Of a DNA stretch of 28,414 nucleotides, positions 886 through 26,497 are shown piece by piece (the first letter of the stretch is position 1; each line of letters opens with the position of its first letter). A program made the translations under genes and the position numbers. Source of the DNA: a virus; the IMG/VR virus record IMGVR_UViG_3300030382_001549, positions 1,069 to 29,482 of that record; one strand, given 5' to 3'. The notes under the pieces are model-generated. The model searched no databases and was not told the origin of the DNA. It worked only from the letters and a program-made list of their open reading frames with translations.

Positions 886-917
886 CAAAGATACGAATAA
901 TAAATGGAACTGCCAAA
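886..917 (-). promoter_or_regulatory. Bacteroidetes-type promoter for the leftward (early) operon
   Basis: On the minus strand TTTG (917-914) is separated by 20 bases from TATCTTTG (893-886). This matches the known Bacteroidetes sigma-factor consensus of TTG/TTTG about 17-23 bases before TAnnTTTG. Transcription would begin a few bases below 886 and give a leader of about 40 bases to the ATG at 837. It lacks the TTTCGT element of the three phage late-promoter candidates, so it may be read by unmodified host polymerase. Confidence 0.65.
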
Positions 918-2175: not shown

Positions 2176-2185
2176 GGTTTTTTTA

Positions 2186-2193: not shown

Positions 2194-2204
2194 GTAAATA
2201 AAAT

Positions 2205-2232: not shown

Positions 2233-2264
2233 CACCCAAAAAAACTACTTGAAAACATAGAAAT

Positions 2265-2280: not shown

Positions 2281-2283
2281 GTG

Positions 2284-2305
2284 TAGTTATCAGCAAAGAT
2301 AACTA
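2284..2305 (-). terminator. Hairpin overlapping the stop codon of the 92-residue membrane protein
   Basis: TAGTTATC (2284-2291) is the exact inverse complement of GATAACTA (2298-2305), giving an 8-bp stem with a 6-base loop that covers the stop codon at 2303-2305. No U-run follows at once, so it may protect the 3' end rather than terminate. The minus strand also reads TATCTTTG here (2301-2294), a TAnnTTTG match without a well-spaced -33 partner. Confidence 0.4.
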
Positions 2306-8337: not shown

Positions 8338-8350
8338 TATAATAAAAAAT

Positions 8351-8378
8351 ATGTAAGGAGGTTTTACCCCCCTTACAT
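8351..8378 (-). terminator. Terminator after the tail-tube gene
   Basis: ATGTAAGG/CCTTACAT (8351-8358 with 8371-8378) extends through one A·C mismatch to two more G-C pairs, leaving a 6-base loop. On the minus strand it is followed by ATTTTTTATT. It lies between the gene ending at 8395 and the portal-side genes, so it would lower expression of portal relative to capsid and tube. A 16-base perfect palindrome (AAACTAATATTAGTTT, 8386-8401) lies just upstream, over the stop codon. Confidence 0.7.
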
Positions 8379-8394
8379 TTTCTTTAAACTAATA

Positions 8395-11149: not shown

Positions 11150-11188
11150 CAAAAATAATTTTAATTATTATTACACTTACGAAAAAAA
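11150..11188 (-). promoter_or_regulatory. Late-promoter candidate before the protease/capsid operon
   Basis: On the minus strand TTTTTTTCGT (11188-11179) is followed after exactly 21 bases by TATTTTTG (11157-11150) and TAA. The same arrangement and spacing occur before the tail operon (24219-24257) and before terS (26165-26199). The box fits the Bacteroidetes TAnnTTTG -7 consensus, but TTTCGT replaces the usual TTG/TTTG. The ATG of the protease gene follows 5 bases later. Confidence 0.6.
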
Positions 11189-11202
11189 TGGAAAAAAGAT
11201 TT

Positions 11203-11523
11203 TTAACGAACATTTCGTTTTAACATTGATTTATTTCTCTCCTTATAAACTATGTTCTGAGCTGTTCTTTCAGTTATATCATATTTTATTGATAAGTCTA
11301 TAAAACTATGAGTTCTATTACCTTCATTAGTAACAAGTAAACTATCAAAATCTTTAATTACCATATAATTTCTTAGCCTCTTTGGCTCTATCATTCCTCT
11401 CTCAATTAAATGAGCGAGCATATCTTTTACTTGAGGTTCTTCCCCAAACCTTATCTTTAATTCACTATATAGTAAATCAATATATTCTGTTATTATATCT
11501 ACCTTGTTTTCTCTTTGAGCCAT
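11203..11523 (-). CDS. Helix-turn-helix DNA-binding protein, possible late regulator
   Basis: I take the ATG at 11523 (MAQRENKVD) as the start; the longer frame from 11550 would overlap the upstream gene by 23 bases. The 106-residue protein has an N-terminal helical region (EYIDLLYSELKIRFGEEPQVKDML) and a C-terminal helix-turn-helix, FIDLSIKYDITERTAQNIVYKER, of the homeodomain-like kind, ending in a basic tail. The general layout recalls the Mor/C transcription activators of Mu-like phages, but similarity is weak and unverified. It is the last gene of the tail operon and lies immediately before the promoter candidate of the capsid operon, a good place for a transcription factor. Confidence 0.65.
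   Translation of the reverse strand: MAQRENKVDIITEYIDLLYSELKIRFGEEPQVKDMLAHLIERGMIEPKRLRNYMVIKDFDSLLVTNEGNRTHSFIDLSIKYDITERTAQNIVYKERNKSMLKRNVR
11205..11219 (-). terminator. Small hairpin at the end of the helix-turn-helix gene
   Basis: AACGAA (11205-11210) and TTCGTT (11214-11219) form a 6-bp stem with a 3-base loop over the stop codon of the upstream gene. On the minus strand it is followed by AAAAATCTTTTTTCC, so the T-run is displaced. It may be a weak terminator. Confidence 0.3.
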
Positions 11524-11527
11524 ATTA

Positions 11528-11767
11528 TTATTCCCAATATTTAACCACATTTGTCCAAAATTTAGTTACCGCTTTCCTACATCCTACGCAACTAATAGAT
11601 TGTTTAATGTTTGGAAAATGTCTATGCCATTCAGCAAACAAAAAAGGTAAACTTGTGGGATGATACTGTTTTTTAGACTCCATATACTCCTTATTACTAA
11701 TAACGCTCTCCATTATTTCTTTTCTTTTATCTCCCTTAATTTTTTCTGCTACAACTTCTATACTCAT
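11528..11767 (-). CDS. Small CxxC protein of unknown function
   Basis: The 79-residue product has a basic, helical first half (IKGDKRKEIMESVISNKEYM), an aromatic/His segment (FLFAEWHRHFPN) and a CVGC motif followed by RKAVTKFW. From memory, very similar small proteins with 'EWxxxFP…CxGCRxxVxKFW' occur beside tape measure genes of Bacteroidetes phages. A single CxxC plus nearby His residues could bind one metal ion, perhaps between two subunits. It is co-oriented and closely spaced between a zinc-ribbon gene and the helix-turn-helix gene. Function is not known. Confidence 0.6.
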   Translation of the reverse strand: MSIEVVAEKIKGDKRKEIMESVISNKEYMESKKQYHPTSLPFLFAEWHRHFPNIKQSISCVGCRKAVTKFWTNVVKYWE

Positions 11768-11782
11768 ATTATAATTTATTGG

Positions 11783-11983
11783 TTACTCTTTCCATTTACC
11801 TAAGGGACACTCACCGAAAAAATCTTTACTAAGAGTTGTTTTTGCATCTAAGAAACATTTACATTTACCACATCTTGCTCCCCATTCCCATTTAGGTTTT
11901 TTTAACATTAAAAAATTTCTGTAAAAACTACAGCTTTTACAAGTATCTAATCTATCTTGTTTAACTTTTTTATTAACAAACAT
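11783..11983 (-). CDS. Small zinc-ribbon protein (DUF6171-like)
   Basis: This 66-residue protein shows four Cys groups: CKSC at about residue 15, then CGKCKCFLDAKTTL, and CPLGKW at the end. The pattern 'CxxC…CGxCxCFLxxKTxL…CPLGKW' is one I know from short Bacteroidetes phage proteins and from DUF6171-type zinc-binding proteins. It starts three bases after the tape measure stop and so belongs to the tail operon. Zinc binding is strongly suggested; its role (assembly, regulation or host modulation) is not visible. Confidence 0.65.
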   Translation of the reverse strand: MFVNKKVKQDRLDTCKSCSFYRNFLMLKKPKWEWGARCGKCKCFLDAKTTLSKDFFGECPLGKWKE

Positions 11984-11986
11984 ATC

Positions 11987-14900
11987 TTAAAAAGTTGCTT
12001 CAGCTTCAATAGTTTTTACAGTGTTCTGTGTAGATGTTATATCAGCTTCTACTACTACTACCTTAGAACTTTCCTTATTAGCCCCTTGATTCATAACATC
12101 AAATTCTGTTTGTGCAAATGATGGGTTATTAGTTACACCTCCATCCGCAAACCTAACTCCCCCTCCAGCACTATTCATAGCTGAAAGTTGACTTCTAAAC
12201 ATTGATGTACTTCTTTTATTTATAACAGCCTCCCCTCCTTCTAACTCTACTACTCTACCACCTAGAGCAAACATTTCTCCACCCTGAGAATGAGAATTAC
12301 CATAAACCATCCCACCATCAGCGAATGTACTATGCTGACCACCAAAAGTATAATATGTCATAGATTCAGTTTTGCTTCCTCCATGAGCTCCTGAGGTACT
12401 TACTCCGCCTTCACTAGGAGCGGGAGCTCCCGCAGCACTTGCTCCATAATCGCCGCCGAAAAGGCTTTTAATACTAGCTATAGTACTAATTATAGCTAAT
12501 ACTGTTCCCGCCATAGCAATTAGGTTGTAAGGAAATACAAGTCCTGACTGTTTTGTAACACCCTCAGCAGCGTTTGTACCAGCCTTAAATAGATTAGCAA
12601 ATCCCGCAGCCAGTGTGGTACTTATACCTCCAGCTTCTTGTATTTGAGCTTGTAAAGCATACATAGCTTTCTTTTTATCTGCCAAAGCACTTATTTCTTT
12701 TTGTAAAGTAAATATAGATTCTGCTACGGCAGCCGCTTTAGTAATTGCTATACCAACTTTTCTTAATCCTTGTAATCTTTCCTCATCTCCAGCCATTTCC
12801 TCTATCAAACCTCCCATCTCCGCAAAACTACTTATAGCAGCGTCTCTCTCATCTATTAACATCCTATAAGCTTCAGAAGTATTAATTATTTGCTGATTCT
12901 CCAGAGCTGATATATCTTTATTAGCATTATCATAAAGTTCTATCTTTTTTCTCAACCATTCTCCTGTAATACCATGTAATTGAGCTTGATAAGTCCATTC
13001 ATCAATAAGTCCTTGATTTCTCTGCTGCTCTAATAAAGCTTTTTCTACATCATAATTCTTATCAATTTCTTCCTCTGACTTCTTAAATGCTTCTTTATCA
13101 ATCTTAAGTAGTATATCGTTCCTCTTTTGTTTAGCAGCAATTATATCTTGATTATGTTCATGCTCAGTTTCATCATATTGAGCTATAAATTGTTTCACAG
13201 CTTCTAATTGACCCTCTAGCATTGTAAGATTATAATCTTCCTCTCCTATTATTTTACCAAAAAGAGTCTGAGAGATTTCAGGGTCTAACATAGCTGTATT
13301 TACAATATCCCTCGCTTTATTCATAAAATCCTGTAAACTCCATAAAGCATCTTCTTCATCAGGGCCATCATCATCAGGGCCATCACCATCAGGATAATCT
13401 GTACCTAATAACTCCTCTAATGAAGTTTGACTTGTAGATTCCATAATTTCCTTTAAGGCTTCTCTTTGTCTTTTTAGATACTCATCTGAAGCTGCTGTCG
13501 AGCCTATTGGCAATCCAGATGAAAACTCATCATACCAGTGCATACCTGGCGATGCTTCATACTCCTCTAGATAATCCATGTAATCAATAGATGCAACTTG
13601 GCCTGGGTCTAGAATTTCCAGAAATGTAGCCATTGTCATCTCATATTTTTCTAATAATCTAGATAATCCAATAGCAGCTACATTTGTATCTTTCTCTAAA
13701 CTTGCTTTCTGTTTCGCTATCATTTCATCAGCATTCCCATAACCAAATATCCCAGCAAGCCAATTACTCTGTTCGTGTATATAAGTAGGCATTCTTAAAT
13801 CTTGATTATTTGATTTTGCAGTTCTAATATATTTAGCAATAACTTTTTTCCAAAGATATCTTTCATTTTCTCTAAAAGTATATCCTAAATCTGAATCTTT
13901 TTCCCACTCATCCATTTCATCTAGAAATGGCTGCAGCTCCTTTCTAATAGTCTTAGCTGTAACTATCTCCCTTACCGCTTCTCTCTCTAATTCCATATAT
14001 ATATCAGCCATCGCTTTGTCCTGCATCACCTTCATCAATTCTTCAGTCTCTTTCTTTATATCTCCTATTAAATCTTTCTCAGTTATAAGAGTCAGTCCAT
14101 ACTGTTTTCTAATTTTATTAATATCTTTAAGAGCTCTTTTTTCCTTTGCTTTTGCATTATTGTACTCCAGTGTAGAAACAGATGATTTATCAATCAATCT
14201 ACCTTCGGAATCTGTTAGTCTATTTAAGGTTGTTTTAGCATCAATAAGATTAAGTAAACTTTGATTTACCATCTCTATTTCTACACTAGCATCTACCATT
14301 GCTTCATTTACTTGGTCTTGCAAGCTAACAAACTTGTATGTTTCCTCATTTATCCCCATCATACTAGCTACCCATTCTCCTAAAGCGATTACTAGAAGTC
14401 CTATTCCTGTAGAAACTATAGCGAGTCTTAATGTTTTAAGAGCTGCAGACAGAACAGCTGTAGCTCCTGCTGCGGCACTCATTCCACCTGCCGCACCTGT
14501 AGCTGTCGTTCCCATAGCTGCTAGAGCTATTTTAGCTGGCTTTAACCCTATAACTAAAGCAGCTATAAATCTAGTAGCTGTCTTTATCTGTAACCATAAC
14601 TTCCTTATTTTACTATCGCTTTCAACAATTTCATTTAACCATTTAGCAAACGATTCTAAAACTTTCTGTAAGCTTTTACCAAAATTTTTCACAAGAGCTA
14701 TTGATAGACCCTGAAAAGCTGATTTAACCTTAAATATACTTCCTTGTAAAGTATCTCCAACTGTATCAGCCATTCTTTGCCCAGCTCCATCAGCATTCTT
14801 TAATTCTTCTACTAAAGCTTTCATATCATCAGCTCCATGTAACATAGTACCAAAAGCAGCTATTTGTCTATCATCCATAAATGTTAATACCTCTCCTAAG

Positions 14901-15856
14901 TCAGTTCCCTCATCTTGCATTTCTTTAAATACTTCTAACATTCTATCTAAACTACTTATAGTATGCCCTACCCTTCTAGTTAAGTCAGATGTAGGGTCTT
15001 GCATTTTAAGGAATATATTTCTTAAGGATGTACCAGCAATAGAAGCTTCAATACCTGTATCAGACAATTTAGCCATAATAGCTGTTGTTTCTTCAATAGA
15101 AAATCCAGCCATAGTTGCAATTGGAGCAACTTTAGTCATAGATGTTTGCCATTTCTCAATATCTAAAGCAGAACTTGTAAATGCTACAGCCATAACATCT
15201 ACCACTCTACCAGCTTCAGTAGCGTCTAACTGAAAACCTCTAATAGCGTTACCAGCAACAGTAGCCGCTCTAGCTAAATCACTTCCTGTAGCAATAGACA
15301 AGTTAATTGTAGCTTGTGTAGCGTCTAATATTTCATCAGTTGTAAATCCTAATTTAGAAAGGTTTAGCTGTAAGTTAGCCACTTCAGAAGCAGTAAAGAA
15401 TGTTGAACGACCTAACTCTTGAGCTGAATCTGATAACTGTCTAAATTCCTGAGTATTAGCACCACTAACAGCTCTTACTTTAGCCATAGTAAATTCAAAC
15501 TCAGTAAATGTTCCAATCATTGTCGTTAAAGCTTGGCTAACTCTCCTAAAGGCAGTTACTAATATAGAGAAAGCTGCAGCTCCCTGTATAACTCCCATAG
15601 TCATTGACTTTTGAAGTTTATTTGATTTTCTAGCTACATCATTAGCTCCTGACATTGCTTTCTTTAACTCTCTAAGCTCTTTTGCTTGAAATTTAATAGA
15701 CTTAGATGTCTTTCCGTAAGCATCAGCATCTCCCTTACTTTGTTTAGCATTGTCTCTTTGCTGTTTTCTTAATCTCTTAAGACTATCTTCAAGTTCTTTT
15801 ATTCTACGAACTCCCTCAACCTTTACATTTATTATCTTATTTACTTTTCCTGCCAT
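11987..15856 (-). CDS. Tail tape measure protein
   Basis: This is the longest gene (1289 residues). Residues 1-80 are basic and coiled. Residues about 115-390 carry the core of the TP901-type tape measure family: FEFTMAKVRAVSG, STFFTASEVANLQLNLSKLGF, GFQLDATEAGRVVDVMAVAFTSSALD and a TGIEASIAGTSLRNIF segment. Hydrophobic Ala/Gly-rich stretches at about 425-500 and near 1120-1140 fit membrane-insertion segments. A long helical middle, with an acidic D/G/P patch near residue 825, precedes a C-terminal region with FADGGMVYGNSHSQGGE and VELEGGEAVINK. It sets tail length and probably helps DNA cross the envelope. At about 1.5 Å per residue in helix it would suggest a tail of up to about 190 nm, a rough inference. 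Confidence 0.92.
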   Translation of the reverse strand: MAGKVNKIINVKVEGVRRIKELEDSLKRLRKQQRDNAKQSKGDADAYGKTSKSIKFQAKELRELKKAMSGANDVARKSNKLQKSMTMGVIQGAAAFSILVTAFRRVSQALTTMIGTFTEFEFTMAKVRAVSGANTQEFRQLSDSAQELGRSTFFTASEVANLQLNLSKLGFTTDEILDATQATINLSIATGSDLARAATVAGNAIRGFQLDATEAGRVVDVMAVAFTSSALDIEKWQTSMTKVAPIATMAGFSIEETTAIMAKLSDTGIEASIAGTSLRNIFLKMQDPTSDLTRRVGHTISSLDRMLEVFKEMQDEGTDLGEVLTFMDDRQIAAFGTMLHGADDMKALVEELKNADGAGQRMADTVGDTLQGSIFKVKSAFQGLSIALVKNFGKSLQKVLESFAKWLNEIVESDSKIRKLWLQIKTATRFIAALVIGLKPAKIALAAMGTTATGAAGGMSAAAGATAVLSAALKTLRLAIVSTGIGLLVIALGEWVASMMGINEETYKFVSLQDQVNEAMVDASVEIEMVNQSLLNLIDAKTTLNRLTDSEGRLIDKSSVSTLEYNNAKAKEKRALKDINKIRKQYGLTLITEKDLIGDIKKETEELMKVMQDKAMADIYMELEREAVREIVTAKTIRKELQPFLDEMDEWEKDSDLGYTFRENERYLWKKVIAKYIRTAKSNNQDLRMPTYIHEQSNWLAGIFGYGNADEMIAKQKASLEKDTNVAAIGLSRLLEKYEMTMATFLEILDPGQVASIDYMDYLEEYEASPGMHWYDEFSSGLPIGSTAASDEYLKRQREALKEIMESTSQTSLEELLGTDYPDGDGPDDDGPDEEDALWSLQDFMNKARDIVNTAMLDPEISQTLFGKIIGEEDYNLTMLEGQLEAVKQFIAQYDETEHEHNQDIIAAKQKRNDILLKIDKEAFKKSEEEIDKNYDVEKALLEQQRNQGLIDEWTYQAQLHGITGEWLRKKIELYDNANKDISALENQQIINTSEAYRMLIDERDAAISSFAEMGGLIEEMAGDEERLQGLRKVGIAITKAAAVAESIFTLQKEISALADKKKAMYALQAQIQEAGGISTTLAAGFANLFKAGTNAAEGVTKQSGLVFPYNLIAMAGTVLAIISTIASIKSLFGGDYGASAAGAPAPSEGGVSTSGAHGGSKTESMTYYTFGGQHSTFADGGMVYGNSHSQGGEMFALGGRVVELEGGEAVINKRSTSMFRSQLSAMNSAGGGVRFADGGVTNNPSFAQTEFDVMNQGANKESSKVVVVEADITSTQNTVKTIEAEATF

Positions 15857-15869
15857 ATTTTTTTATTTA

Positions 15870-16388
15870 TTAACCTGCTACTACATCTATTATTTTACCT
15901 TCTTCATTTAAGAAACTTAAATATTCATTTACAGCTTCATTAAAAGCTGAATCTAAACTATTGTATAATCCCTCTTGTTCTGCCATCATATCTGCTTTAC
16001 CTGAAAAATCACTCCTTCCCGCAGATTCAGCCATTCCACGCTCAGTCGGCCAACCTTCCTCATTTAATTCTTTTGCTATTTTACTAGCTATAGCGCTTAA
16101 ATCTCCCTCAAAACCACCTTTTAACTCCATCCACCTATAAATAACATTTTTTTTAACATTAGTAGGGTATTTTTGTTTACCATAATTATCAATCCTTTCC
16201 CAATAATACCTACTATTACCTATTGATAACTGAACTAAATCTGAATCTTCCTTAATACTAAAATAAAAACCTCTGGTAAGAGCTCCTGAAGCACTATGAC
16301 CCTGCTCTTCAATTATCATAGTCATATACTTTATAAGCCTATCTCCTATATACCCTAGTTCTCTTTTTATTTCACTTTTTTCTGCCAT
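15870..16388 (-). CDS. Small tail/neck protein, possibly HK97-gp10-like
   Basis: The 172-residue protein has an N-terminal helical part, SASGALTRGFYFSIKEDSDLVQLSIG, and a segment with YYWERIDNYGKQKYP, followed by helices and an acidic C-terminus. The sequence of a 'SGxLxxSF…YxxxxdxGrkP' type is what one sees in HK97 gp10-like tail-completion proteins, though the match is from memory and loose. It precedes the tape measure gene by 13 bases and its start overlaps the upstream stop by one base. A tail-terminator or neck role would fit, since no other gene in the window clearly fills it. Confidence 0.5.
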   Translation of the reverse strand: MAEKSEIKRELGYIGDRLIKYMTMIIEEQGHSASGALTRGFYFSIKEDSDLVQLSIGNSRYYWERIDNYGKQKYPTNVKKNVIYRWMELKGGFEGDLSAIASKIAKELNEEGWPTERGMAESAGRSDFSGKADMMAEQEGLYNSLDSAFNEAVNEYLSFLNEEGKIIDVVAG

Positions 16389-16726
16389 TACAAATTATTT
16401 CTTGCTAATGGAACTCCTACATTATTACCAATATTTACTAATGATTGTATGACTGGTATTAAATTGCCATACGAATCAGTAAAAAGAACAGGTAAGAATA
16501 TATCTTCTGTAACCTTATTAACTTCTGTTATTAAAGTCTCTCCCTCACAACACGCTCCTCTATCATCATCAGTGCTAATGTCAGTAACAATAGGCTGAGT
16601 CATATATATCGGTCCTCCTCTTTCTGTAAGAACCCCCTCCTTATTAACACTTAAAACAGATGCAGTTGGAGATTTAGATTGCACATCTGCTAGTGTTGGT
16701 TTGCTTGATTTTATTGTTCCTTCCAT
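16388..16726 (-). CDS. Small tail-operon protein of 112 residues
   Basis: The 112-residue product is hydrophilic with some beta character. It has SSKPTLADVQSKSPTASVLSVN at the start, a Cys pair (GACCEGE) near residue 60 and a C-terminal stretch LFTDSYGNLIPVIQSLVNIGNN. I do not recognise a family. It lies between the large tail-tip protein and the gp10-like protein. The next ATG overlaps its stop by one base, so it is translated as part of the same operon and is probably a tail or tail-assembly protein. Confidence 0.5.
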   Translation of the reverse strand: MEGTIKSSKPTLADVQSKSPTASVLSVNKEGVLTERGGPIYMTQPIVTDISTDDDRGACCEGETLITEVNKVTEDIFLPVLFTDSYGNLIPVIQSLVNIGNNVGVPLARNNL

Positions 16727-16751
16727 ATTTTATAATTTAATTACTTCAAAT

Positions 16752-19700
16752 TTATGTGTATGTGTTATAGGTCTTGGAGCCTGTCCATTGTATAAACTCA
16801 ACTTTTGTTGTTGTATTTTTTAAGGGAGCATAATCAACAATTTTATTTATTCTCCAATAATCTCCATTTATATACGCTAATTTACTTAAATCTAAAGTAG
16901 CTATGTCAGATGATTTTAGGTTTATATACATAGTTCTAATTCTTGGATTTGACTTTAATTGTTCTATCATATTTTTCCAATAGACACTATATAATCCCTC
17001 AACTCTAGTTGGTGTTGATGTCATTGTAGGAGTTATAATTTCATCATTAAATGATAAGTTTGTAAATTTATCTCCTGAATTATTATCCCAATCTACAAAT
17101 GTAGCTCTTGGGGTAGTAGTGTGCTTAGAAGTACTATAAACATTTCCACTTACATTATAAAACTTTTCCCATCCTGTTGGAAGATTAGCGTGGTTAGGGC
17201 TTTGTACCAATCCCTGATAAAGTAGAATTCTTGGATTGTACTTCCATAATTTTTCAGGCCGAGAAGTAACACCAGCTGTAACATAACTTAAGTCCCAACC
17301 ATATATAGATTCTTCTTTATTTATAACAGGAACTAAAGCGGGGTTTCTAGAGGATGTACTACTATATTCTTTAAGGGAGGGGTCCCAATCACACCAAGTT
17401 GATGAGAAAACAGGATTTACAAAGCTTGTTATTCCCTTATTGTAACTCTCTCCTAACTCCTCAAAATAATTAAAGAAGTTATATTCATTTCCCCCTTCCT
17501 TGAATGCATCGTTAATAAACTTCATTAATCCATCAGAGCTATCATTCTTATATTGAAATGATAATTGTTTAGTAAGACCAATATTATATTCATCTTCAAT
17601 TTCTTTTGATAAATCTAATTTATCTGTCCAATCATAAGATAAACTTTTATCTTTGTAAAAATCATTAAAAGGTTCAATATAAACCAATTTACGAGACATA
17701 TCGGTCCTAAATTGAAGATTAAACAAATTAGCAATACCTTTTATGAAATTTACTTGAGATATATTACATGGAAGTATATCGCTGTATTTATATGTTTCGT
17801 CAAAAAGATAATCACTTGTGGACATATCAACCTTAAAGTATGGAGATTCGTAAAACTCCCACATATTACCTACATTACTACCACTACTAGTATATATCTG
17901 TCCAGCTGGCATGGGAAATACTACATTGTTTAACCCCCCAACTAGTGCACTATACTGTCCTGTAGGAGACCTTAAATGAATATCATTTACAGCAGCTACT
18001 CCCCACCTAACACCAGTAATCGTACCAGTTGTTGATGGGTCCTCCGCCTTAGCTTTTACCCTTACTTTTATTTCAATCTCATCTCCAGCAGTATAAGCTC
18101 TTGTACCTGAATCTATTTCTGCTCTAACACAAGCTAACATAGGAATGGTAGTTGAAATATATTGAGCTGACTGAATACCTACAGTAGTAGTTGATGTAGT
18201 AGTGTCTCTACCTATCTCAGTGTTAAAAGTATAGCTGCCAACTTGTGAATTAGCATCTGAGGTTTCTTGAATAATAGTTCCATTTATCCATAAACTTACA
18301 TATACATTCAAATTAGCTTTAGCGTACTGGTTCGCCGAAGTATTTTCAAAATCCCCTATCACTAAACATATTACAGATTCTATATCGTAGTGCCCTGATT
18401 TAGGGCAAGTCCACACTCCTGTAGATGTATCATAATCTCCATTTACATCACTAACTACTTTATCATTTATTACTGTCAGGTAGCCTGTGGATGTAAAGGA
18501 AGATGAGTTAATACTATTCGCATTAGCAGCACTTAAAATTTGATAATCTGTTGCAGATATTGTACTATCCCATATACCTTTATCGCCACCTGTCGGCTCA
18601 TCAAGATTCCAATAATCTCTTGAAATCATAACTTCAGAAACTTGATTGCTTAGTTTCTTCTCATCAGGGGGGAAGTGGCATATTAATTTTTTGAAATCAA
18701 CATCATCTATAAAATTACTTACAAATTGATATCCAACACTATTAAAAATATTTTCAATAATATTATAAAGATAAAATGATGGTCTAAAATCGTGTCCCCT
18801 CTGAGCTTTCTCTCCCTGCTCACTCTCTTTATTTCCAACATATGGACCGTGTCCCTCAACATACCACTCTCCATAATCTATTAATGGATAAACAATATCA
18901 CTTGTAGCTTGTGTTTCTGTCCAACTATTTTCTGTGTTAGTTTTATTATATTCTATTGTTCTGATTGACCTAAGAGAAACATTATCAAGAGTACCTATAA
19001 ATCCACCCGACCCTGAATTTAAACGAAAGGTACTTAGATTAGTGCCAGTTCCCGCATCTCCAAAAATAAATTGATAACTCCACACTCCAACACCGTCAGC
19101 TCCTGACCACACAGAAGTGTCTCCAGCGCTATTTGTTATACTTCCTTCTAAAGAGCCACTCGTGTAAGCTGTTATTTCAAAAGAAACTTCATATTTTTCT
19201 CCAACAGCTAATTTTTGATTTATAGCTAATACATCTTGGTCTAATTGTTTGTATATTGCCATAAACCACTGTATATGTCCATTATACCAAAGTAAACCAG
19301 TAGAGCCTAGTGAGTAAATCCAATTTCCAGACACACCACTTAATACCTGAACACCAAAGCTACCATTCACTATTAATTCCCCATATCTATCAAATGTATC
19401 ACAAATATTTTTATTTTTTATTTGAGATAGCCACCCATAATTACCCCCAAAAATAGTGCAAGAATAAGATAATGGTCTTGATGACTGTCTGCTTCCTTTT
19501 ATCTGAATCTTACCATTAAAAAAATCTACAGAATCTATTAATATTCTACAATCTTTTAATCCAACAATATCTTTAACATCATCTATTTTCGCATTATATA
19601 TATTGTCAAATAATTTATTATTATTTTTTGTAGCTGGTATATCAAATGATTTTGAAAAATCTCCAAATCTTGAGTCTAAATCTCTACCATCTGAAACAAG

Positions 19701-19799
19701 GTATGATATAGCTAGGGGAAAATTCTCACTATCAGTAATATCTAGTGTTCCTAAAACACTATTATCATAATCTAGTATCTGTACATCTATTTTCGCCAT
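16752..19799 (-). CDS. Large tail-tip protein with carbohydrate-binding-like inserts
   Basis: This 1015-residue protein has an N-terminal domain (1-140; RFGDFSKSFDIPATKNN, DSVDFFNGKIQIKG) typical in my memory of Bacteroidetes phage baseplate/tail-tip proteins. Residues about 143-278 look like an inserted carbohydrate-binding module: it opens with IVNGSFG, has EKYEVSFEITAYTSGSLEGSI and closes with GTLDNVSL. Residues about 445-600 resemble a C1q/TNF-type jelly roll (NGDYDTSTGVWTCPKSGHYD). The scaffold then resumes (VNFIKGIANLFNLQFRTD…) to the C-terminus. It probably forms the tail hub and displays two sugar-binding-type domains for host attachment. Domain names are pattern judgements. Confidence 0.7.
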   Translation of the reverse strand: MAKIDVQILDYDNSVLGTLDITDSENFPLAISYLVSDGRDLDSRFGDFSKSFDIPATKNNNKLFDNIYNAKIDDVKDIVGLKDCRILIDSVDFFNGKIQIKGSRQSSRPLSYSCTIFGGNYGWLSQIKNKNICDTFDRYGELIVNGSFGVQVLSGVSGNWIYSLGSTGLLWYNGHIQWFMAIYKQLDQDVLAINQKLAVGEKYEVSFEITAYTSGSLEGSITNSAGDTSVWSGADGVGVWSYQFIFGDAGTGTNLSTFRLNSGSGGFIGTLDNVSLRSIRTIEYNKTNTENSWTETQATSDIVYPLIDYGEWYVEGHGPYVGNKESEQGEKAQRGHDFRPSFYLYNIIENIFNSVGYQFVSNFIDDVDFKKLICHFPPDEKKLSNQVSEVMISRDYWNLDEPTGGDKGIWDSTISATDYQILSAANANSINSSSFTSTGYLTVINDKVVSDVNGDYDTSTGVWTCPKSGHYDIESVICLVIGDFENTSANQYAKANLNVYVSLWINGTIIQETSDANSQVGSYTFNTEIGRDTTTSTTTVGIQSAQYISTTIPMLACVRAEIDSGTRAYTAGDEIEIKVRVKAKAEDPSTTGTITGVRWGVAAVNDIHLRSPTGQYSALVGGLNNVVFPMPAGQIYTSSGSNVGNMWEFYESPYFKVDMSTSDYLFDETYKYSDILPCNISQVNFIKGIANLFNLQFRTDMSRKLVYIEPFNDFYKDKSLSYDWTDKLDLSKEIEDEYNIGLTKQLSFQYKNDSSDGLMKFINDAFKEGGNEYNFFNYFEELGESYNKGITSFVNPVFSSTWCDWDPSLKEYSSTSSRNPALVPVINKEESIYGWDLSYVTAGVTSRPEKLWKYNPRILLYQGLVQSPNHANLPTGWEKFYNVSGNVYSTSKHTTTPRATFVDWDNNSGDKFTNLSFNDEIITPTMTSTPTRVEGLYSVYWKNMIEQLKSNPRIRTMYINLKSSDIATLDLSKLAYINGDYWRINKIVDYAPLKNTTTKVEFIQWTGSKTYNTYT

Positions 19800-21559
19800 T
19801 AGTTAGATTGTGTGTTTAATTTATGGGAATATGTATATTCTATATTAAATTTAACAAGTCCTAAACTTTCATCTACAGTACTTACTGTTGAATTATTTAT
19901 AATTACAGGGAAATAATCTTTTTCTGATGGATGAGACGCAGGATTGTGTTCCTTAGCTCTTTCACTAGCTGCGTTTTGTAATTCTATCCAAACATTTGGA
20001 GATGTTACTATTTCTTCTAACCATTTAGCTTGAACTGAATTTAAGGGGTCTGTAAATACACTACCTTTTTCTGTAGCTGTCATTCCTAAAGTTTCTATAG
20101 ATGGTTTATATGTATCAGCTCCTAATGTGTCTTGGGGGTCGTTAAATGTAGTTGCAGAGCTATAATATCCATATTCCTGTATATATCTCATGTCTGTAGT
20201 TTGTCTCTCAAAAAATGTTTTAACAACATCTACCCCCTCTGTGGTATTTCTTTTAGCTGTATAACTATCTATACCCCCCATTCTATTTACCCAATGAAAT
20301 CTTACAAAAGGGAAAGCGTTATTTGCTGGCTGTCTATCTATCTTAAAATTTCTTGTCTCACTACAGGTATAACTTGCAACACCCCCCGCTGTAGGATTTA
20401 TATATAGAACAGCTGTATAGTACTCTGTATCATCTGTTATCCCCACCCCTGACCAACCACTAAGAGTATTCAAATATGAGGGAGATACATTTTGCATTAT
20501 ATACTTACCCACATACCCTGAAGAATCAAAATGACTTATTAAGTTGGCAACAGCAGGGTCTTGACCACAAGTTGTTCTCCAATCTCTGCAATTAACATAG
20601 TTTGAAGCTCCAGCATAAGTATAAGCTGTTATACGCATATGGAAATCACTAGCTATTATTCCTGTATTATCAGTTATAAATTTTTCTAAATAATATGATA
20701 ACCACTCTGCTTCTTCATCCATCCTTACAAGTTTCATGGATTCATAAGGAGGAATTTCTATAGCTGAATTATTTGCATTTGGGCATAAAGAGAAAAATTT
20801 ACCCCTACGATTGCTGGCAGAGGAATATGCCGCTGTATTTATTCTCCATAAATTAAGATTTCCATACCACCCCGTATATTGAGGAACGCTATTTATTATA
20901 GGATATGAGTAAGTATTTTTTCTTACATCATTAGTACCATCATCTGCAATTACTAAATTATTACTAGCTGTAGTTTCTTTTACTTCAAATCTAATTTGAA
21001 CATCAATAAATCTAACAGACCCCTGAACAGATGTAAAAGGGTATAAATCATTCGTTGAATAATGACCTCCCATTTGATATGTGTCAGACATAGCTCCTTT
21101 TTTTATTGGAACTAAAGTATAAGATAGATAATTTTTTACAAGGGGAGCGATATCAACAGTAAAAGTATGGTAGTTAATAGCCGTGTCCCATGTACCTGAT
21201 TGGGGATTTATACCTTCATTAGCTTTGTATGGTAAATCTCTTGATTTTCTTAATGTTCCAGCTAGCACCATATTAGTAGCTCCTGTTGAGTTATTTACAG
21301 TCCTAGAGTCATAATAATCTATACCAATATAAACATCAAACAAAGCGTTTACTAAATCTCCCCCTGTTAAAGCTGAATCTAATGAAGTGTTAGTTATTCT
21401 AGGAAGTGTACTACCCCATCCAATTTGATATACTAAAGGTTGATTACATGAAATTAGTCTAGCTTGGTCATTTTTAGTATATCCTGATGTAGCATATGTT
21501 CCGTAAGGGGTTTTTATTAGAGATACTGCTGCTACTCCTCCGTTTAAATTAACTGCCAT
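19799..21559 (-). CDS. Tail/baseplate protein of 586 residues
   Basis: The 586-residue protein is beta-rich and starts MAVNLNGGVAAVSLIKTPYG. Near residue 425 it has a segment RFHWVNRMGGIDSYTAKRN, which I remember as a recurrent hallmark of Bacteroidetes phage tail proteins encoded next to the tail-tip gene. YTWYGNLNLW-like and ESMKLVRMDEEAEWLSYY segments lie in the middle, and the C-terminus (VDESLGLVKFNIEYTYSHKLN) is strand-like. It overlaps the tail-tip gene by one base. A distal tail or baseplate ring protein is the best reading. No sheath-protein signature was seen, supporting a non-contractile tail. Confidence 0.65.
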   Translation of the reverse strand: MAVNLNGGVAAVSLIKTPYGTYATSGYTKNDQARLISCNQPLVYQIGWGSTLPRITNTSLDSALTGGDLVNALFDVYIGIDYYDSRTVNNSTGATNMVLAGTLRKSRDLPYKANEGINPQSGTWDTAINYHTFTVDIAPLVKNYLSYTLVPIKKGAMSDTYQMGGHYSTNDLYPFTSVQGSVRFIDVQIRFEVKETTASNNLVIADDGTNDVRKNTYSYPIINSVPQYTGWYGNLNLWRINTAAYSSASNRRGKFFSLCPNANNSAIEIPPYESMKLVRMDEEAEWLSYYLEKFITDNTGIIASDFHMRITAYTYAGASNYVNCRDWRTTCGQDPAVANLISHFDSSGYVGKYIMQNVSPSYLNTLSGWSGVGITDDTEYYTAVLYINPTAGGVASYTCSETRNFKIDRQPANNAFPFVRFHWVNRMGGIDSYTAKRNTTEGVDVVKTFFERQTTDMRYIQEYGYYSSATTFNDPQDTLGADTYKPSIETLGMTATEKGSVFTDPLNSVQAKWLEEIVTSPNVWIELQNAASERAKEHNPASHPSEKDYFPVIINNSTVSTVDESLGLVKFNIEYTYSHKLNTQSN

Positions 21560-21561
21560 AT

Positions 21562-22761
21562 TTAATAAATTTTATATTTGTTATTCAAATAAGTTAGTAC
21601 TTGTGATTTTTCAGTAGCATCAAGAGCTTTATCATATCCAATTATCTCCGCTATATTACCATCTAAAAACTCTATATTATCTGTTGCTAATTGCCCACAT
21701 CCTATCTGAAATGGAGTTGTACTATAATTTGCTAATGTAAATGCACTAGTAACTTCTGTGTAACCACCTCCATTAATACTTATACTTATCTTATAATCAT
21801 CAGGAGGGTCTGCTTGTAATTTACAACAGTATATAGCCCATTCATCTATATCAGCGGCTACAGTATTAGTAATCTCATCGCCGCCAGCTTTAGTGTACCC
21901 TATAATAGTAGATAACTTATATTTAATCGTACATATCGTTGTGTCCCCTCTATTCATACTAAACAATGTTTGAGTTGGAACTGCCGACTCATCATCACAT
22001 TTAGAAACTATAAAGAAAGTCATTTCTCCTGAACTAAATGGAGAGTTAGCTATTGAGAGCATATTATCATCTGTCCCATCAAAAACTATTTGAGCTTTAT
22101 CGGAAGGACCATCATATCCATATCTTAAAGGCTGAGTCTCACTATCAGTTTGTGATACATCACTACTTACATCTGATTGGTCTGCCCAAGCACTTACTTG
22201 TTTAGTTGGAATACTGAAAGTAACACTACTATCTGCTTTTAACCATAGTTTTAATTCTGTTATAGTGTTAGGATATAGAGATTTTGGAGTAAAACATCTT
22301 GTAAACATCCTCATATCAAATCTCATTGTTATTCTACATAACTTATCATTCTTATCATTTTTTATTCTATCTATCTGTACTGTTTCTTTATCTATATAAA
22401 CTTCTGTTGGAGTAGGAGATTGATTAGTAGAAGGATTAACAATAGTTCCTCCCGAATAATTTATTAAAACATTATCTAACCATTCTAACGCTAAATCTTG
22501 TAGGTTATCCCATCTTTGTTGTAGCGTTACTGCATTTTGAGCAGCAGTTTGATAACTATTGTAAAACTCCATCTCTACATTATAATATTCCCATCCTTCA
22601 TATATATCAGGCATCCTAGATGTAGGTGGGGTCATAACCATTAAGGGATAAATAGTATCGTGGTCTTGATTTACTTCTCCCTCATACTTAAAAGAGCTAT
22701 CCCCATAAGTCCACTTACTTGTAGCTACAGTTATAAAATCTGTTAGTCTTGTGATAGCCAT
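21562..22761 (-). CDS. Tail protein with C-terminal lectin-like (LamG/ConA) domain
   Basis: Residues 1-165 form a conserved-looking virion domain ending RFDMRMFTRCFTPKSLYPN, similar in memory to free-standing tail proteins of Bacteroidetes phages. Residues about 169-399 read as a concanavalin/LamG-like domain: LKLWLKADSSV, VSAWADQS, IVFDGTDDNMLSI, MTFFIVSK, DEWAIYCCKL, GNIAEIIGYDKAL and YLNNKY. This is the usual pattern of bacterial LamG modules that bind glycans. The fusion suggests that a tail protein displays a sugar-binding domain on the particle. The ATG lies within the preceding 54-residue gene (19-base overlap). Confidence 0.7.
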   Translation of the reverse strand: MAITRLTDFITVATSKWTYGDSSFKYEGEVNQDHDTIYPLMVMTPPTSRMPDIYEGWEYYNVEMEFYNSYQTAAQNAVTLQQRWDNLQDLALEWLDNVLINYSGGTIVNPSTNQSPTPTEVYIDKETVQIDRIKNDKNDKLCRITMRFDMRMFTRCFTPKSLYPNTITELKLWLKADSSVTFSIPTKQVSAWADQSDVSSDVSQTDSETQPLRYGYDGPSDKAQIVFDGTDDNMLSIANSPFSSGEMTFFIVSKCDDESAVPTQTLFSMNRGDTTICTIKYKLSTIIGYTKAGGDEITNTVAADIDEWAIYCCKLQADPPDDYKISISINGGGYTEVTSAFTLANYSTTPFQIGCGQLATDNIEFLDGNIAEIIGYDKALDATEKSQVLTYLNNKYKIY

Positions 22762-22907
22762 AATTCTTTATGTTTATTTTTTCTATTATATTTCTTTTTA
22801 TTCAAATGTATTTTATTGCCAATCATACCATTTTTTCTGTCCTCTTGGATTTCTAACCATTTGACATATTCTTTTAATTTTTTCTTATCTTCTTCTGAAA
22901 TTATCAT
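22743..22907 (-). CDS. Small basic helical protein of 54 residues
   Basis: The frame starts at the ATG at 22907, overlapping the TGA that ends the frameshifted chaperone extension (ATGA), and stops at 22745-22743, 19 bases inside the next gene. It begins MIISEEDKKKLKEYVKWLEI and becomes strongly Lys/Asn-rich. The tight overlaps on both sides and a helix-forming first half argue for a real gene. It is probably translated by re-initiation after the chaperone fusion frame and may act with it in tail assembly. No family was recognised. Confidence 0.6.
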   Translation of the reverse strand: MIISEEDKKKLKEYVKWLEIQEDRKNGMIGNKIHLNKKKYNRKNKHKELWLSQD

Positions 22908-23227
22908 GCTATTTTATTTGGATTCCTAATTTTATCATTAATTGCAGCTTCAAAATCTGTAGTAGCTGTTTGCCAACTCATATATGTTAATACTTTATAT
23001 AGATTTGCGTCCTTCACTGAATCTATACTATTTTTGCCTCCTTTTGTAAACACCCCTTTCTCCGCTATGCTGTATAAACTATTTAACCAACCATAAGGTT
23101 TTATAAACTTTTTATACTCTCCTTCTGTTCTAACTCCACCTGTTGATGTAGTTCTACTTCCGAAGATATTTGAAAATGATTTATCAATTTCATGTTTTGT
23201 ACGCTTAAAAAAAAACTGAACTCCCAA
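22904..23227 (-). CDS. -1 frame extension of the tail-assembly chaperone
   Basis: This frame overlaps the end of the 230-residue chaperone ORF and is entered by -1 slippage at TTTTTTA (23212-23206), not from its own Met at 23227. After the slip the product continues KRTKHEIDKSFSNIFGS… for 100 residues and ends at the TGA at 22906-22904. The predicted fusion is 296 residues, compared with 230 without slippage. The extension has a GEYKKFIKPYGWLNSLY segment that recalls C-terminal parts of unsplit chaperones in related phages. In lambda the analogous gpG-GT product binds the tape measure. A homopolymer sequencing error is the main alternative. Confidence 0.75.
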   Translation of the reverse strand: MGVQFFFKRTKHEIDKSFSNIFGSRTTSTGGVRTEGEYKKFIKPYGWLNSLYSIAEKGVFTKGGKNSIDSVKDANLYKVLTYMSWQTATTDFEAAINDKIRNPNKIA

Positions 23228-23793
23228 ATGATATCCATTGTAAGTTTCTTAAATCTTTCTGTTTTTTTATCTATAATGTCCTCATCATATTCCTCTCCCG
23301 CTCTCCTACATAAAATTGCCATTTGCTCTGGTAAAACATCAAACGCTCCATGCTTCATACTCTCAATAGTCATATCTAACTGTGTCGATTCAATATAATC
23401 TCCAAAAGTGTTATCAAACATAGATTCTTTAGGGAAAAAGTATTTTTCTTCTTCAAACATAAACCCATCTATAGCTTTAGGTTCATATTCTTCTGTTACC
23501 TGTCCAATAAATTCCATAGCTCTACTAATACTATTTACATCACATCTTTGTAGAGTTTCATTATCAATTTTTGTTATATATTGAAAAATATCAGTATTCA
23601 TCCTCAACATTTCAACTGTGCTAATTTTGGAGAAAGGTTTTTCTTTATCAAACTCCCCTTCTTTTAATTTAGCCTTATGTTTTTGCTCATGACTTTTTAT
23701 TAAATCATACCAACCATACCAATATTCTAATGTAATATCTTTCCATTCTGTTGGAACTTCATATTTTTTGCCATCAATATCTAATGTTACCAT
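23101..23793 (-). CDS. Tail-assembly chaperone (gpG-like), unshifted product
   Basis: The 230-residue product begins VTLDIDGKKYEVPTEWKDITLEYW, the usual opening of a tail-assembly chaperone. Helical segments follow, with FEEEKYFFPKESMFDN and FDVLPEQMAILCRRAGEEYDEDII before KKLTMDIIWEFSFF at the slip site. After residue 196 the zero-frame tail is only 34 residues (SVQNMKLINHFQ…KSL), compared with 100 in the -1 frame. The gene overlaps the upstream stop by one base. In lambda-like phages the short form coats the tape measure and the long form recruits tube subunits. Confidence 0.75.
   Translation of the reverse strand: MVTLDIDGKKYEVPTEWKDITLEYWYGWYDLIKSHEQKHKAKLKEGEFDKEKPFSKISTVEMLRMNTDIFQYITKIDNETLQRCDVNSISRAMEFIGQVTEEYEPKAIDGFMFEEEKYFFPKESMFDNTFGDYIESTQLDMTIESMKHGAFDVLPEQMAILCRRAGEEYDEDIIDKKTERFKKLTMDIIWEFSFFLSVQNMKLINHFQISSEVELHQQVELEQKESIKSL
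23171..23212 (-). promoter_or_regulatory. Programmed -1 ribosomal frameshift site
   Basis: The heptamer T TTT TTA occupies 23212-23206 in the correct phase: zero-frame codons are TTT (195) and TTA (196), and the -1 frame reads TTT TTT AAG into the extension. It lies within a run of nine T (23215-23207). UUUUUUA is the heptamer used by HIV-1. Thirteen bases downstream an AU-rich imperfect hairpin, TGAAATTGA-TAAA-TCATTTTCA (23192-23171), could act as a weak stimulator. Confidence 0.7.
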
Positions 23794-24200
23794 TATATTT
23801 CCTTTAGTTTAACCTTAAATTCACTACTGATTCTATCTTCAGCATATATATCGTATGTCTCCCCAATTATTTGGGAAGTTTTTCTAAATAAATTTTTTTT
23901 CATTCTATCAATATCTTCTCTTAAATCATCTCTGTCTATCCCCGCTAAAAATCCAACCGCCGAAAACACTACTAAGTTTGGAATCATATATCTCCACTCT
24001 AACATTAAAGAATCTTGATTTTTATGGTCATCTCTAAATTCATTAGAATAACATATTATCATTTCTAAAATACCATTGAAATCTCCAAATTTACCAATAT
24101 TTTCTTCCTCAGTTATGTAATAAATAGATGCCTTCACATTTCGGATATATTTATCCAATATTTTCTTGTGTTTTTTGTTGTCGCAGACAATATCTGTCAT
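23793..24200 (-). CDS. Protein of unknown function at the head of the tail operon
   Basis: The 135-residue product is mainly helical, with a hydrophobic helix at about residues 74-88 (IPNLVVFSAVGFLAGI) that could be buried or membrane-associated, and charged flanks. It starts 19 bases after a promoter-like box and its stop overlaps the chaperone start by one base, so it leads the tail operon. I recall unnamed proteins of this size in front of the chaperone in Bacteroidetes phages. Its role could be in tail assembly, but nothing in the sequence shows it. Confidence 0.55.
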   Translation of the reverse strand: MTDIVCDNKKHKKILDKYIRNVKASIYYITEEENIGKFGDFNGILEMIICYSNEFRDDHKNQDSLMLEWRYMIPNLVVFSAVGFLAGIDRDDLREDIDRMKKNLFRKTSQIIGETYDIYAEDRISSEFKVKLKEI

Positions 24201-24218
24201 TTTAGGTAAAATTTGTTA

Positions 24219-24257
24219 CAAAAATACTATATTAAATAATACAACCCACGAAAAAAA
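24219..24257 (-). promoter_or_regulatory. Late-promoter candidate before the tail operon
   Basis: On the minus strand TTTTTTTCGT (24257-24248) is followed after 21 bases by TATTTTTG (24226-24219) and TAA, the same layout as at 11150-11188. The conserved AT-W-AT core in the spacer occurs at the same offset. It lies in the 63-base gap between terL and the next gene, whose ATG follows 19 bases after the box. Confidence 0.6.
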
Positions 24258-24263
24258 GGGAAA

Positions 24264-25721
24264 TCACGAAAAATACACTATTTTACCTGTATTTGACCAA
24301 ATTTCTCTATTTACTGCCATCACAAGACAATCTACCATGTCATCATGTCGTGCTGATGGAAATTTTACGCATTGTTGTATAAATTCTTCATTCCAATCCC
24401 CCTTCAACAAACTTACTCTCTCAGACTCTAAACTTGCACTTATATCTTGCACTCTTGCTACTTTATCTTTAGTTGGAGGTTTATCTTCCCTAACATTTAA
24501 TCCTGTTTCTCTTTTTAAGGTTTGAACTATTGATTTACCAGACGCTTTTGGCTCTACATAAATTCTACTTCTATTTGTATATCCATTTAACTGCACCCAC
24601 TGAGGTATGAATCTTATTAAATCAGGAAAGTCTTTATGAACATTTGTGCAATTTATAATCTGCCATTTATTATCAACATAAACATACGCTAATAATGCTG
24701 AGGGGTCGTTCTTCTGATTTTCAGTATATGCGGGGTCAATTATAAAATTCACTGTTACTCCACTTATATTTTTTGCATGCTCATCTATCTTAAACCAATT
24801 TCCTCTTATCAATCCTGAATTAAGGGGAGTTGGAGTTTGCATAAGTTGTCCTGCATATCCATAAGTCCCTAATGCCTCTTTATAATCTTGTAATATATCT
24901 CTACTAAATCTATCTGTCCAAAATAAATCATCTTCATCATAATATTCTCTTAAAGAAGCGGGTTTTACATCATCTGATAATTCTGCGGGTATGCAAATGT
25001 GTTTATATTTCAATCTTGTGTTTATTCCCCCAACTAAATATCCGCTCAAGTCATTTTCGTGTATTCTTTGCATAATAATTATTCTGACCCCTGTTAATGG
25101 ATTATTTAATCTTGAGTAAAATGTTGTTCGGTACCACTCGTTCGCATTTTCCCTTTCCACTTCAGACGCAGCGTTTTTTGGGGAAACAGGGTCATCAATA
25201 ATTAAGAAATCTGCTCCCTGTCCTGTAATGGTACCTCCAACAGATGTAGCTCTACGCATTCCCATATAATTATTCTCGTATCTAGCTTTTAAGTTTTGGT
25301 CTTTCTTAATATGAAACACATCTCCCCATCTTTCTCTATACCAATCACTCTGAATAACATCTCTTGATTTAGTTGCATGTTCTATAGAGAGGTCAGCAGA
25401 ATAAGAAGCGGTAATAAATCTAAGTTTAGGGTCTCTTATCCAACACCAAACAGGAAATAGTACCGTAACGATTAAAGATTTTGTTGAACGGAAAGGAACA
25501 TTAACAATAATGTCTTTCTTTTTTGGTTTCCCTTCAATAATTCTTTCAGCTTCCTCTTGTAATAAATTACATAAGTATTTATGATGCCAATTAGTTGATA
25601 AGGGTACAGCAGGCTCTACAATATGCCAAGACATCTTAAAAAATTCATAAAAAGACATCTCACATAATTTTTGCTCAATAGCAAACTTTATAATGTCATC
25701 ATTATTCTTCGTTGTACTCAT
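24264..25721 (-). CDS. terL: Terminase large subunit
   Basis: This 485-residue protein has an N-terminal ATPase with a Walker A-like segment at 75-82 (VPFRSTKS), ASYSADLS at 105-112, a Walker B at 172-177 (FLIIDD) and a coupling motif MQRIHENDLSGYL at 217-229. The C-terminal RNase H-like nuclease has the acidic residues D329 (IIDPAYTE), E390 (VEPKASGKS) and D460/D461/D464 (ARHDDMVD). It drives DNA into the prohead and cuts the concatemer. The Walker A is not the GxxxxGK[ST] form, as is usual for phage terminases. It overlaps the small subunit gene by 20 bases. Confidence 0.93.
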   Translation of the reverse strand: MSTTKNNDDIIKFAIEQKLCEMSFYEFFKMSWHIVEPAVPLSTNWHHKYLCNLLQEEAERIIEGKPKKKDIIVNVPFRSTKSLIVTVLFPVWCWIRDPKLRFITASYSADLSIEHATKSRDVIQSDWYRERWGDVFHIKKDQNLKARYENNYMGMRRATSVGGTITGQGADFLIIDDPVSPKNAASEVERENANEWYRTTFYSRLNNPLTGVRIIIMQRIHENDLSGYLVGGINTRLKYKHICIPAELSDDVKPASLREYYDEDDLFWTDRFSRDILQDYKEALGTYGYAGQLMQTPTPLNSGLIRGNWFKIDEHAKNISGVTVNFIIDPAYTENQKNDPSALLAYVYVDNKWQIINCTNVHKDFPDLIRFIPQWVQLNGYTNRSRIYVEPKASGKSIVQTLKRETGLNVREDKPPTKDKVARVQDISASLESERVSLLKGDWNEEFIQQCVKFPSARHDDMVDCLVMAVNREIWSNTGKIVYFS

Positions 25722-26145
25722 CTAATCTTTTTCTCAATTCATCAACAGATATATCATCATTAAAATCAACTTTGATTCTTTTTGAAGTATTATCTGTAAT
25801 CTCAGATGATGAGAGTTTGGGAACTGTATAGTTCATTAATTTAGCAACAGCGTTTATATATGCTTCGGGGTCTTTATCAAATAATTTCTCCAAAGCTATT
25901 TTGATTTTTGTTGAATGTCCCTCTAAAGCCCAAGCTAAAGCATTTCTACTCATCGCAGTAGTTTTAGCTTTTCCCCTTGTCGGCTTAATATCCTCTATCT
26001 CTTTAGTTAAGGGAGGTAATTTTCTTGTTTGGGGTTTAATCACTTTTTCCCCTTTAACATTTTCCTTGATATTCTTCTCCATATCATCTATACTGCCATC
26101 TAATCTTAATCTTCTTCTTAATTCCTCTTTTTCTGTATCTTTCAT
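25702..26145 (-). CDS. terS: Terminase small subunit (probable)
   Basis: I choose the ATG at 26145 (MKDTEKEELRRRLRL) over the in-frame ATG at 26175, because the late-promoter-like box occupies 26165-26172 and would leave the upstream ATG outside or inside the promoter. The 147-residue protein has a charged, helical N-terminus with Lys/Thr/Pro-rich linker, then SRNALAWALEGHSTKIKIALEKLF and KDPEAYINAVAKLMNYTVPKLSSSEI. The latter is a pattern I recognise from small terminases of Bacteroidetes phages. It would bind the packaging site, probably in the adjacent gene-free region, and load the large subunit, whose gene it overlaps by 20 bases. Confidence 0.75.
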   Translation of the reverse strand: MKDTEKEELRRRLRLDGSIDDMEKNIKENVKGEKVIKPQTRKLPPLTKEIEDIKPTRGKAKTTAMSRNALAWALEGHSTKIKIALEKLFDKDPEAYINAVAKLMNYTVPKLSSSEITDNTSKRIKVDFNDDISVDELRKRLDEYNEE

Positions 26146-26164
26146 AATCTTATATTTAATATTA

Positions 26165-26199
26165 CAAATAAACAAAATATAATTATACCTATAACGAAA
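26165..26199 (-). promoter_or_regulatory. Late-promoter candidate before the terminase genes
   Basis: TTTCGT (26199-26194) is followed after exactly 21 bases by TTTATTTG (26172-26165) and TAA on the minus strand. It is the weakest of the three copies because the -7 box departs from TAnnTTTG, but spacing, the AT-W-AT core and the TTTGTAA end agree. The terS ATG at 26145 follows 20 bases after the box, almost as in the tail operon. Confidence 0.5.
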
Positions 26200-26223
26200 T
26201 TTATAGAAATAATATAAAATTCA

Positions 26224-26287: not shown

Positions 26288-26340
26288 ACCTTTTTTCTAT
26301 ATTTTTCGTAGTTGTTAAATTTCAATCCCCTAACTTGTGC

Positions 26341-26362
26341 TTACATTTGTATTACATTTGTA
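26341..26362. repeat. 11-bp perfect tandem direct repeat
   Basis: TTACATTTGTA occurs twice without a gap (26341-26351 and 26352-26362). Each copy contains TACATTTG, a match to TAnnTTTG on the plus strand, but no gene lies to its right on that strand and no well-spaced -33 element is present. It could be a protein-binding site. Confidence 0.7.
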
Positions 26363-26497
26363 TCTCCCAGAAAACATACTAACAATTCCTTATAACTTAC
26401 TGATTATCTGTTTAATATGGATATAAAATTGAAATTCAAAATTTGACTTGTATGTGTAGAGGTTCAAGAAAGAGGAATCCAAAAATTGACGGAAATT

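Follow-up and report, generated by a model that had tools for sequence, protein, structure and literature searches.

The window analysed here, a 28,414-nucleotide stretch (positions 1,069 to 29,482) of the 29.5-kb IMG/VR viral record IMGVR_UViG_3300030382_001549, carries three matched elements on its minus strand, at the heads of the terS-terL, tail and protease/capsid/portal operons. Very probably these are late promoters for host sigma-A polymerase, used together with a small phage DNA-binding activator at the sequence TTTC-N6-TTTCGT. The promoter reading is well supported and the activator is likely phage-encoded, the leading candidate being HTH106, a small helix-turn-helix (HTH) protein. 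The elements have a fixed grammar, keep their placement among related phages, contrast with the early promoters and differ from clade to clade in their upstream box at two operons; from this we infer promoter status, late timing and activator binding.

Elements at the heads of the virion operons

The first-pass annotation of the window had pointed out the pattern TTTCGT-N21-TWTWTTTGTAA at three minus-strand places, and these are indeed its only three occurrences in the record (Table 1). The AT-W-AT core that it had noted is also real, with spacer positions 8-12 reading ATAAT in the terS element, ATTAT in the tail element and ATAAT in the protease element. Further, the element is longer than first reported: at all three sites, a conserved TTTC lies exactly 10 bp ahead of TTTCGT. 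The full box reads TTTC-N6-TTTCGT at about -49 to -34 and is followed, about 20 bp on, by a Bacteroidota sigma-A -7 box; these coordinates rest on the published placement of the -7 motif TAnnTTTG, which was mapped at -12 to -5 in Flavobacterium psychrophilum (PMC9723704). The tail and protease elements (both TATTTTTG) conform to TAnnTTTG and the terS element (TTTATTTG) is off at one base, while the -33 TTG is missing in all three, positions -35 to -33 reading GTT, GTG and GTA. This is in line with the earlier view that the -7 part fits the Bacteroidota consensus and TTTCGT does not: the -7 box is of the host sigma-A type and the -33 TTG is replaced.

Transcription is predicted to start near 26160 for the terS operon (terS ATG at 26145) and near 24214 for the tail operon, where the ATG of an open reading frame (ORF) lies at 24200. 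At the protease operon the predicted start falls on the protease ATG itself (11145). Counting from a -7 box at -12 to -5, this ATG stands at +1 in the window's clade and a few bases off in other clades, so that the protease may be translated from an mRNA with little or no leader. The elements had also been said to occupy the only gaps of any size at the start of virion operons. With gaps of about 600, 63 and 57 bp this is broadly correct, but it passes over a 127-bp gap before the exonuclease gene, which contains a terminator-like hairpin, and a gap of about 57 bp at 8338-8394.

A matrix of 58 bases was built from 14 distinct sites of six related genomes, none of them from this record, which was held out. 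It scored 53.4 bits at the protease element, 53.0 at the tail element and 46.9 at the terS element, vs. 16.1 for the next match in the record and 15.7 for the best score over 200 random genomes; since the training genomes are relatives, these matches measure conservation and are not an independent rediscovery. Among 200 random genomes generated with a Markov-1 model to match the dinucleotide composition, the exact pattern TTTCGT-N21-TWTWTTTG turned up a single time. The first-pass annotation had proposed such a scan and had named equal numbers of matches inside genes as the outcome speaking against promoters; intragenic matches stayed at background and the three operon-head sites came out far on top. 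A loose regular expression for the grammar was also tried and gave many chance matches inside genes, so that only matrix scores and conserved positions were relied on.

Table 1. Predicted promoters and selected genes of the window (window positions)
Feature	Position	Strand	Details
Predicted late promoter, terS-terL operon	26165..26209	-	TTTC 26209-26206, TTTCGT 26199-26194, -7 TTTATTTG 26172-26165
Predicted late promoter, tail operon	24219..24263	-	TTTC 24263-24260, TTTCGT 24253-24248, -7 TATTTTTG 24226-24219
Predicted late promoter, protease/capsid/portal operon	11150..11194	-	TTTC 11194-11191, TTTCGT 11184-11179, -7 TATTTTTG 11157-11150
Fourth box, divergent	26293..26338	+	TTTC 26294-26297, TTTCGT 26304-26309, N21, TAACTTGT 26331-26338 (imperfect -7)
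Early-type promoter	886..916	-	TTG 916-914, N20, TATCTTTG 893-886
HTH106, 106-aa helix-turn-helix protein, candidate activator	11203..11523	-	Last gene before the protease promoter
Head maturation protease, first gene of the capsid operon	10141..11145	-	PHROG matches down to 3e-79
Terminase large subunit (terL)	24264..25721	-	PHROG 6e-97
Terminase small subunit (terS)	25702..26145	-	Position and conservation before terL in relatives

Conserved grammar and clade-specific boxes

Searches with terL and the protease returned many relatives in IMG/VR. All six that cover the three homologous places (G032, G033, G034, G035, G036 and G037) carry the element at each of them, with one additional pattern match elsewhere in G032, and partial records of the closest clade (clade A) show the pattern at whichever places they cover. 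Within this clade the 21-base spacing is invariant, and the C of the first half-site and the CG of the second are fully conserved. The reversed pattern, employed as a control, matched five times in 23 records and never in the window's clade.

The protease promoter is conserved in 114 distinct loci (that is, loci with distinct proteases), its box being clade-specific. Relatives at 55-59% protease identity have TTCC-N6-box-N20/21-TAnnTTTG, and the distant boxes read TGCGYA or TTCGYA in some phages and TAGGTA in others (the TAGG clades). The tail promoter that follows terL is kept across all related clades, again in clade-specific form: distant clades have TTCC-AAAAAC-TTCTAG-N20-TATAATTG, TTTT-AAAAAC-TTCGCA-N20-TATTATTG or TTCT-AAAAAT-TGTGTA-N20-TAATTTTG. 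Some distant relatives also have TTCY-N6-TTCGTA-N20-TTTATTTG about 1 kb upstream of terS. These phages thus have a common grammar, but the second half-site varies with the clade, and it does so at more than one promoter; this suggests that a trans-acting factor reads it.

Early promoters behave differently. The class TTTGG(C/T)AG...TATCTTTG, with the usual -33 TTG, stands before early genes in the genomes of relatives, an early-type promoter is found in the window (Table 1), and a promoter with TTTGGTAG and the -7 box was also found in TAGG clades. As early promoters keep TTTGG(C/T)AG and the -7 box in both box classes, sigma-A specificity appears unchanged while the late box changed: the early -33 and -7 are constant and the box differs at two separate late promoters. 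In clades with TTCG late boxes, the early promoters (window 886-916 and relatives) also have an unusually conserved spacer that ends in TTCG or TTG beside the -7 box, and TAGG clades lack this spacer end. One possibility considered was that the same protein acts as a repressor through this TTCG; its loss in TAGG clades fits but the spacing differs, and we do not claim it.

A fourth box lies upstream of terS in divergent orientation (Table 1). In a box-only matrix scan it was the second-best match at 22.9 bits, vs. 12.8 for the next unrelated match and a maximum of 21.5 over 200 random genomes. Within the window's clade the box is conserved; its counterpart in other clades is a full promoter, e.g. 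TTCC-AAAAAC-TTCTTN-N20-TACCTTTG, with a conserved hairpin and an ORF of 22-29 residues downstream. This conserved leader was observed on the strand opposite to the terS-operon promoter, upstream of it, in G001, G002, G013, G018, G019, G022 and G026; its hairpin reads GTTGC..GCAAC, or ATTGC..GCAAT in two of them, which is a compensatory change, and it includes the small conserved ORF (e.g. MFKFRIGKITIQLLPPKITWNI). The leader was not seen in the window's own clade, and no Rfam family was found in the records scanned. Beside the divergent box, at window 26340-26365, tandem TACATTTGTATTACATTTGTAT repeats of the iteron type are conserved in most of the clade.

Judged by its sequence, the layout of the three elements is that of a class-II activator promoter. 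Sigma-A would read the -7 box, and the two-part operator TTTC-N6-TTTCGT, with half-sites 10 bp apart, would take the place of the -33 TTG. A small phage DNA-binding protein at this operator would recruit or open the polymerase, and the packaging, tail and capsid genes would be switched on together. The fixed distance to the -7 box, the lost -33 TTG and the clade-specific box change at two promoters support the phage-specific activator, acting with host polymerase, that the first-pass annotation had suggested.

Candidate activators and alternative explanations

On balance, we favour HTH106 as the activator, which would act like the Mor and C proteins of phage Mu. In all 19 assembled contigs, the HTH106 gene immediately precedes the protease promoter. 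The PHROG family phrog_836, 'late transcriptional activator', was matched by all 25 aligned HTH106 members (best E-value 0.002; window protein 0.13). When 12 records were searched in all six frames, the HTH106 gene was the best phrog_836 match in every one; as the family also matches in all control genomes, single matches mean little. Alignment of HTH106 with eight Mor/C proteins by hhalign gave an E-value of 0.0012 over 80 columns, i.e. most of the length, with a probability of only 20% (E-value 0.13 for the second candidate, HTH103). With the AlphaFold2 model of HTH106 (predicted local distance difference test score 86.5), Foldseek placed Mu C at rank 1 (9l0x, E-value 1.4) and Mor at ranks 9 and 18, with template modelling scores below 0.4; the Mor/C fold combines a dimerisation domain with a C-terminal HTH. 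HTH106 would therefore seem to resemble the Mu late activators weakly, and the conserved box at about -49 to -34 fits a Mor/C-type site overlapping -35, to which HTH106 would be a putative binder.

The recognition helix of HTH106 also varies with the box. In 114 of 114 loci, a helix with E-R is paired with a second half-site that contains C (TTCG or TGCG, in two cases TTCA) and a helix with E-S is paired with one that lacks it (TAGG and variants), which defines an R and an S class. In addition, AQN goes with T at the base before the half-site and AQS or AQT with C, with one T/C exception in 110 scored loci.

Several observations weigh against this reading. The terS -7 box TTTATTTG departs from TAnnTTTG. 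The Foldseek E-values are poor (1.4 and worse), HTH106 lies below the Pfam Mor (PF08765) cut-off, with matches in 4 of 25 members (best E-value 0.016), and the only genome-wide PF08765 match fell on another gene; given this cut-off, we describe HTH106 as working like Mor/C and not as a member of the family. Mapped on a protease tree, the R/S trait and the N vs. S/T trait each require two changes, so that the association of helix and box comprises only about two independent switches per trait, a number at which sign and independent-pairs tests of box vs. helix cannot reach significance. HTH106 adjoins one of its own boxes, and the symmetry of the box is not uniform, the direct repeat being stronger in the R class and the inverted one in the S class (six S sites only). 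Finally, the gene lies inside the late tail operon: the protein would boost its own production, and its first copies would have to come from read-through or from a promoter not found here.

The main rival reading keeps the promoters but has a different activator, the early Cro/CI-like protein HTH103 (record about 670), which would be a product of the early operon and would bind the 10-bp direct repeat much like lambda CII; it seems unlikely to us. HTH103 is present in 19 of 19 contigs, and the early region is the expected place for a late activator. The protein is unusually divergent in TAGG clades (40-46% vs. 60-68%; terL 74-78%), where its recognition helix KGSTIEKY is replaced by SEVTARKY or AEITSAKY, and the R-class box resembles itself most strongly as a direct repeat at 10 bp. 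However, this helix is identical in clades A and B despite box differences at the preceding base and in the spacer. By family and fold, HTH103 looks like an ordinary Cro-type regulator (best matches Cro/C1-type HTH_26 and XRE structures, with no CII among the matches), and it could act at early promoters instead. In one phage (G005, L169/L170), an S-type HTH106 helix, a TAGG box and an S-type HTH103 occur with a protease that groups with those of R-type phages, which suggests exchange between lineages.

That a host factor reads the box directly, be it the sigma-A of an unusual lineage or an alternative sigma factor, we consider improbable. The -7 box is of the host type, the hosts may vary between clades, and F. 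psychrophilum has several sigma-A motif variants, with TAnnTTGY promoters (PMC9723704). Nevertheless, the early promoters of the same genomes keep a normal -33 and -7 in both box classes, the box extends to -49, beyond the reach of sigma region 4 alone, and a change of host would leave the exclusive placement before virion operons unexplained. It is very improbable that the elements are chiefly operators or packaging or replication sites: the region upstream of terS is long and has repeats, and the fourth box there is oppositely oriented, but the distance to a canonical -7 box is fixed at 20-21 bp and the elements are strand-specific and head the operons, with the start codon a few bases downstream. 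Least credible is a phage-encoded sigma-like factor reading the whole element, the other branch of the first-pass proposal. The upstream box is indeed non-host, yet the -7 box is that of host sigma-A and the family searches returned no sigma factor, with one of ten HTH103 members giving a weak match (0.13) to sigma region 4.

Gene neighbourhood, hosts and relation to known systems

All recognised genes of the window lie on the minus strand, in the order terS, terL, tail genes, tape measure, two small genes, HTH106, protease, probable capsid, portal, exonuclease and early genes. A PHROG search of the window proteins gave no match for terS. Record positions 1059-1068, directly before the window start, are ten Ns, i.e. 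a scaffold gap, beyond which, outside the window, lie HTH103 (Cro-like) and other early genes. At window 2176-2303, a strong conserved GC hairpin (AAAAGGGGGGTAGTTCCCCCTTTT) precedes the exonuclease gene, followed by TATATTTG near the exonuclease start; the hairpin looks like the terminator of the late operon. A stretch of about 270 bp before the portal gene, considered as a further promoter region, contains small conserved ORFs instead.

No cultured relative was found in a DNA search of phage collections or in a protein search with HTH106, and a GTDB scan with HTH106 gave no match, so the host can only be inferred. Phages of Croceibacter and Cellulophaga are among the closest cultured ones by terL (about 40% identity), and the hosts are probably marine flavobacteria. 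In three cultured phages whose terminases are related, both candidate proteins are missing, and so is the promoter grammar at operon heads.

Compared with known systems, the elements share with the Mu Mor/C promoters (Pm, Plys, PI, PP and Pmom) a small phage HTH protein as the candidate activator, a putative binding site overlapping -35, the lack of a usable -35 and the predicted joint control of several late operons, besides the weak sequence-profile and fold similarity of HTH106; the Mor dyad site lies at -51 to -36 (PMC4287176). They differ in having a Bacteroidota-type sigma-A -7 box, no clear dyad and a candidate that is encoded at the end of the tail operon and falls short of the Pfam Mor cut-off. 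The -7 box and its distance to the start are as in Bacteroidota sigma-A promoters (-33 TTG, -7 TAnnTTTG), whereas the TTG at -35 to -33 is lacking and a long operator lies upstream. Lambda CII promoters (TTGC-N6-TTGC) likewise place two direct half-sites of four bases, with six bases between them, next to the -35 region, but letters and position are different and neither candidate protein matches CII. P2 Ogr and T4 MotA are phage activators that act with host sigma at class-specific promoters, as would the activator proposed here, and Ogr is encoded at the end of a tail operon, a precedent for the location of HTH106; proteins and boxes are unrelated to those described here.

Tentatively, these phages may have a distinct group of Bacteroidota-phage late activators that uses TAnnTTTG, whose operator would be re-specified regulon-wide together with one or two residues of the recognition helix (R to S, N to S/T). 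Such activators would also drive a late RNA in the divergent direction, carrying a conserved hairpin and encoding a peptide of 22-29 residues. A literature search of partial coverage found no paper on such promoters in Bacteroidota phages, whose late gene control is little described. Here, the sequence is enough to name the whole regulon, its promoter grammar and a few candidate activators. The hundreds of relatives form a natural series of operator and protein change, in which protein-DNA specificity and the early-to-late switch are directly testable, and the matrix provides a means of recognising late promoters in uncultured marine phages.

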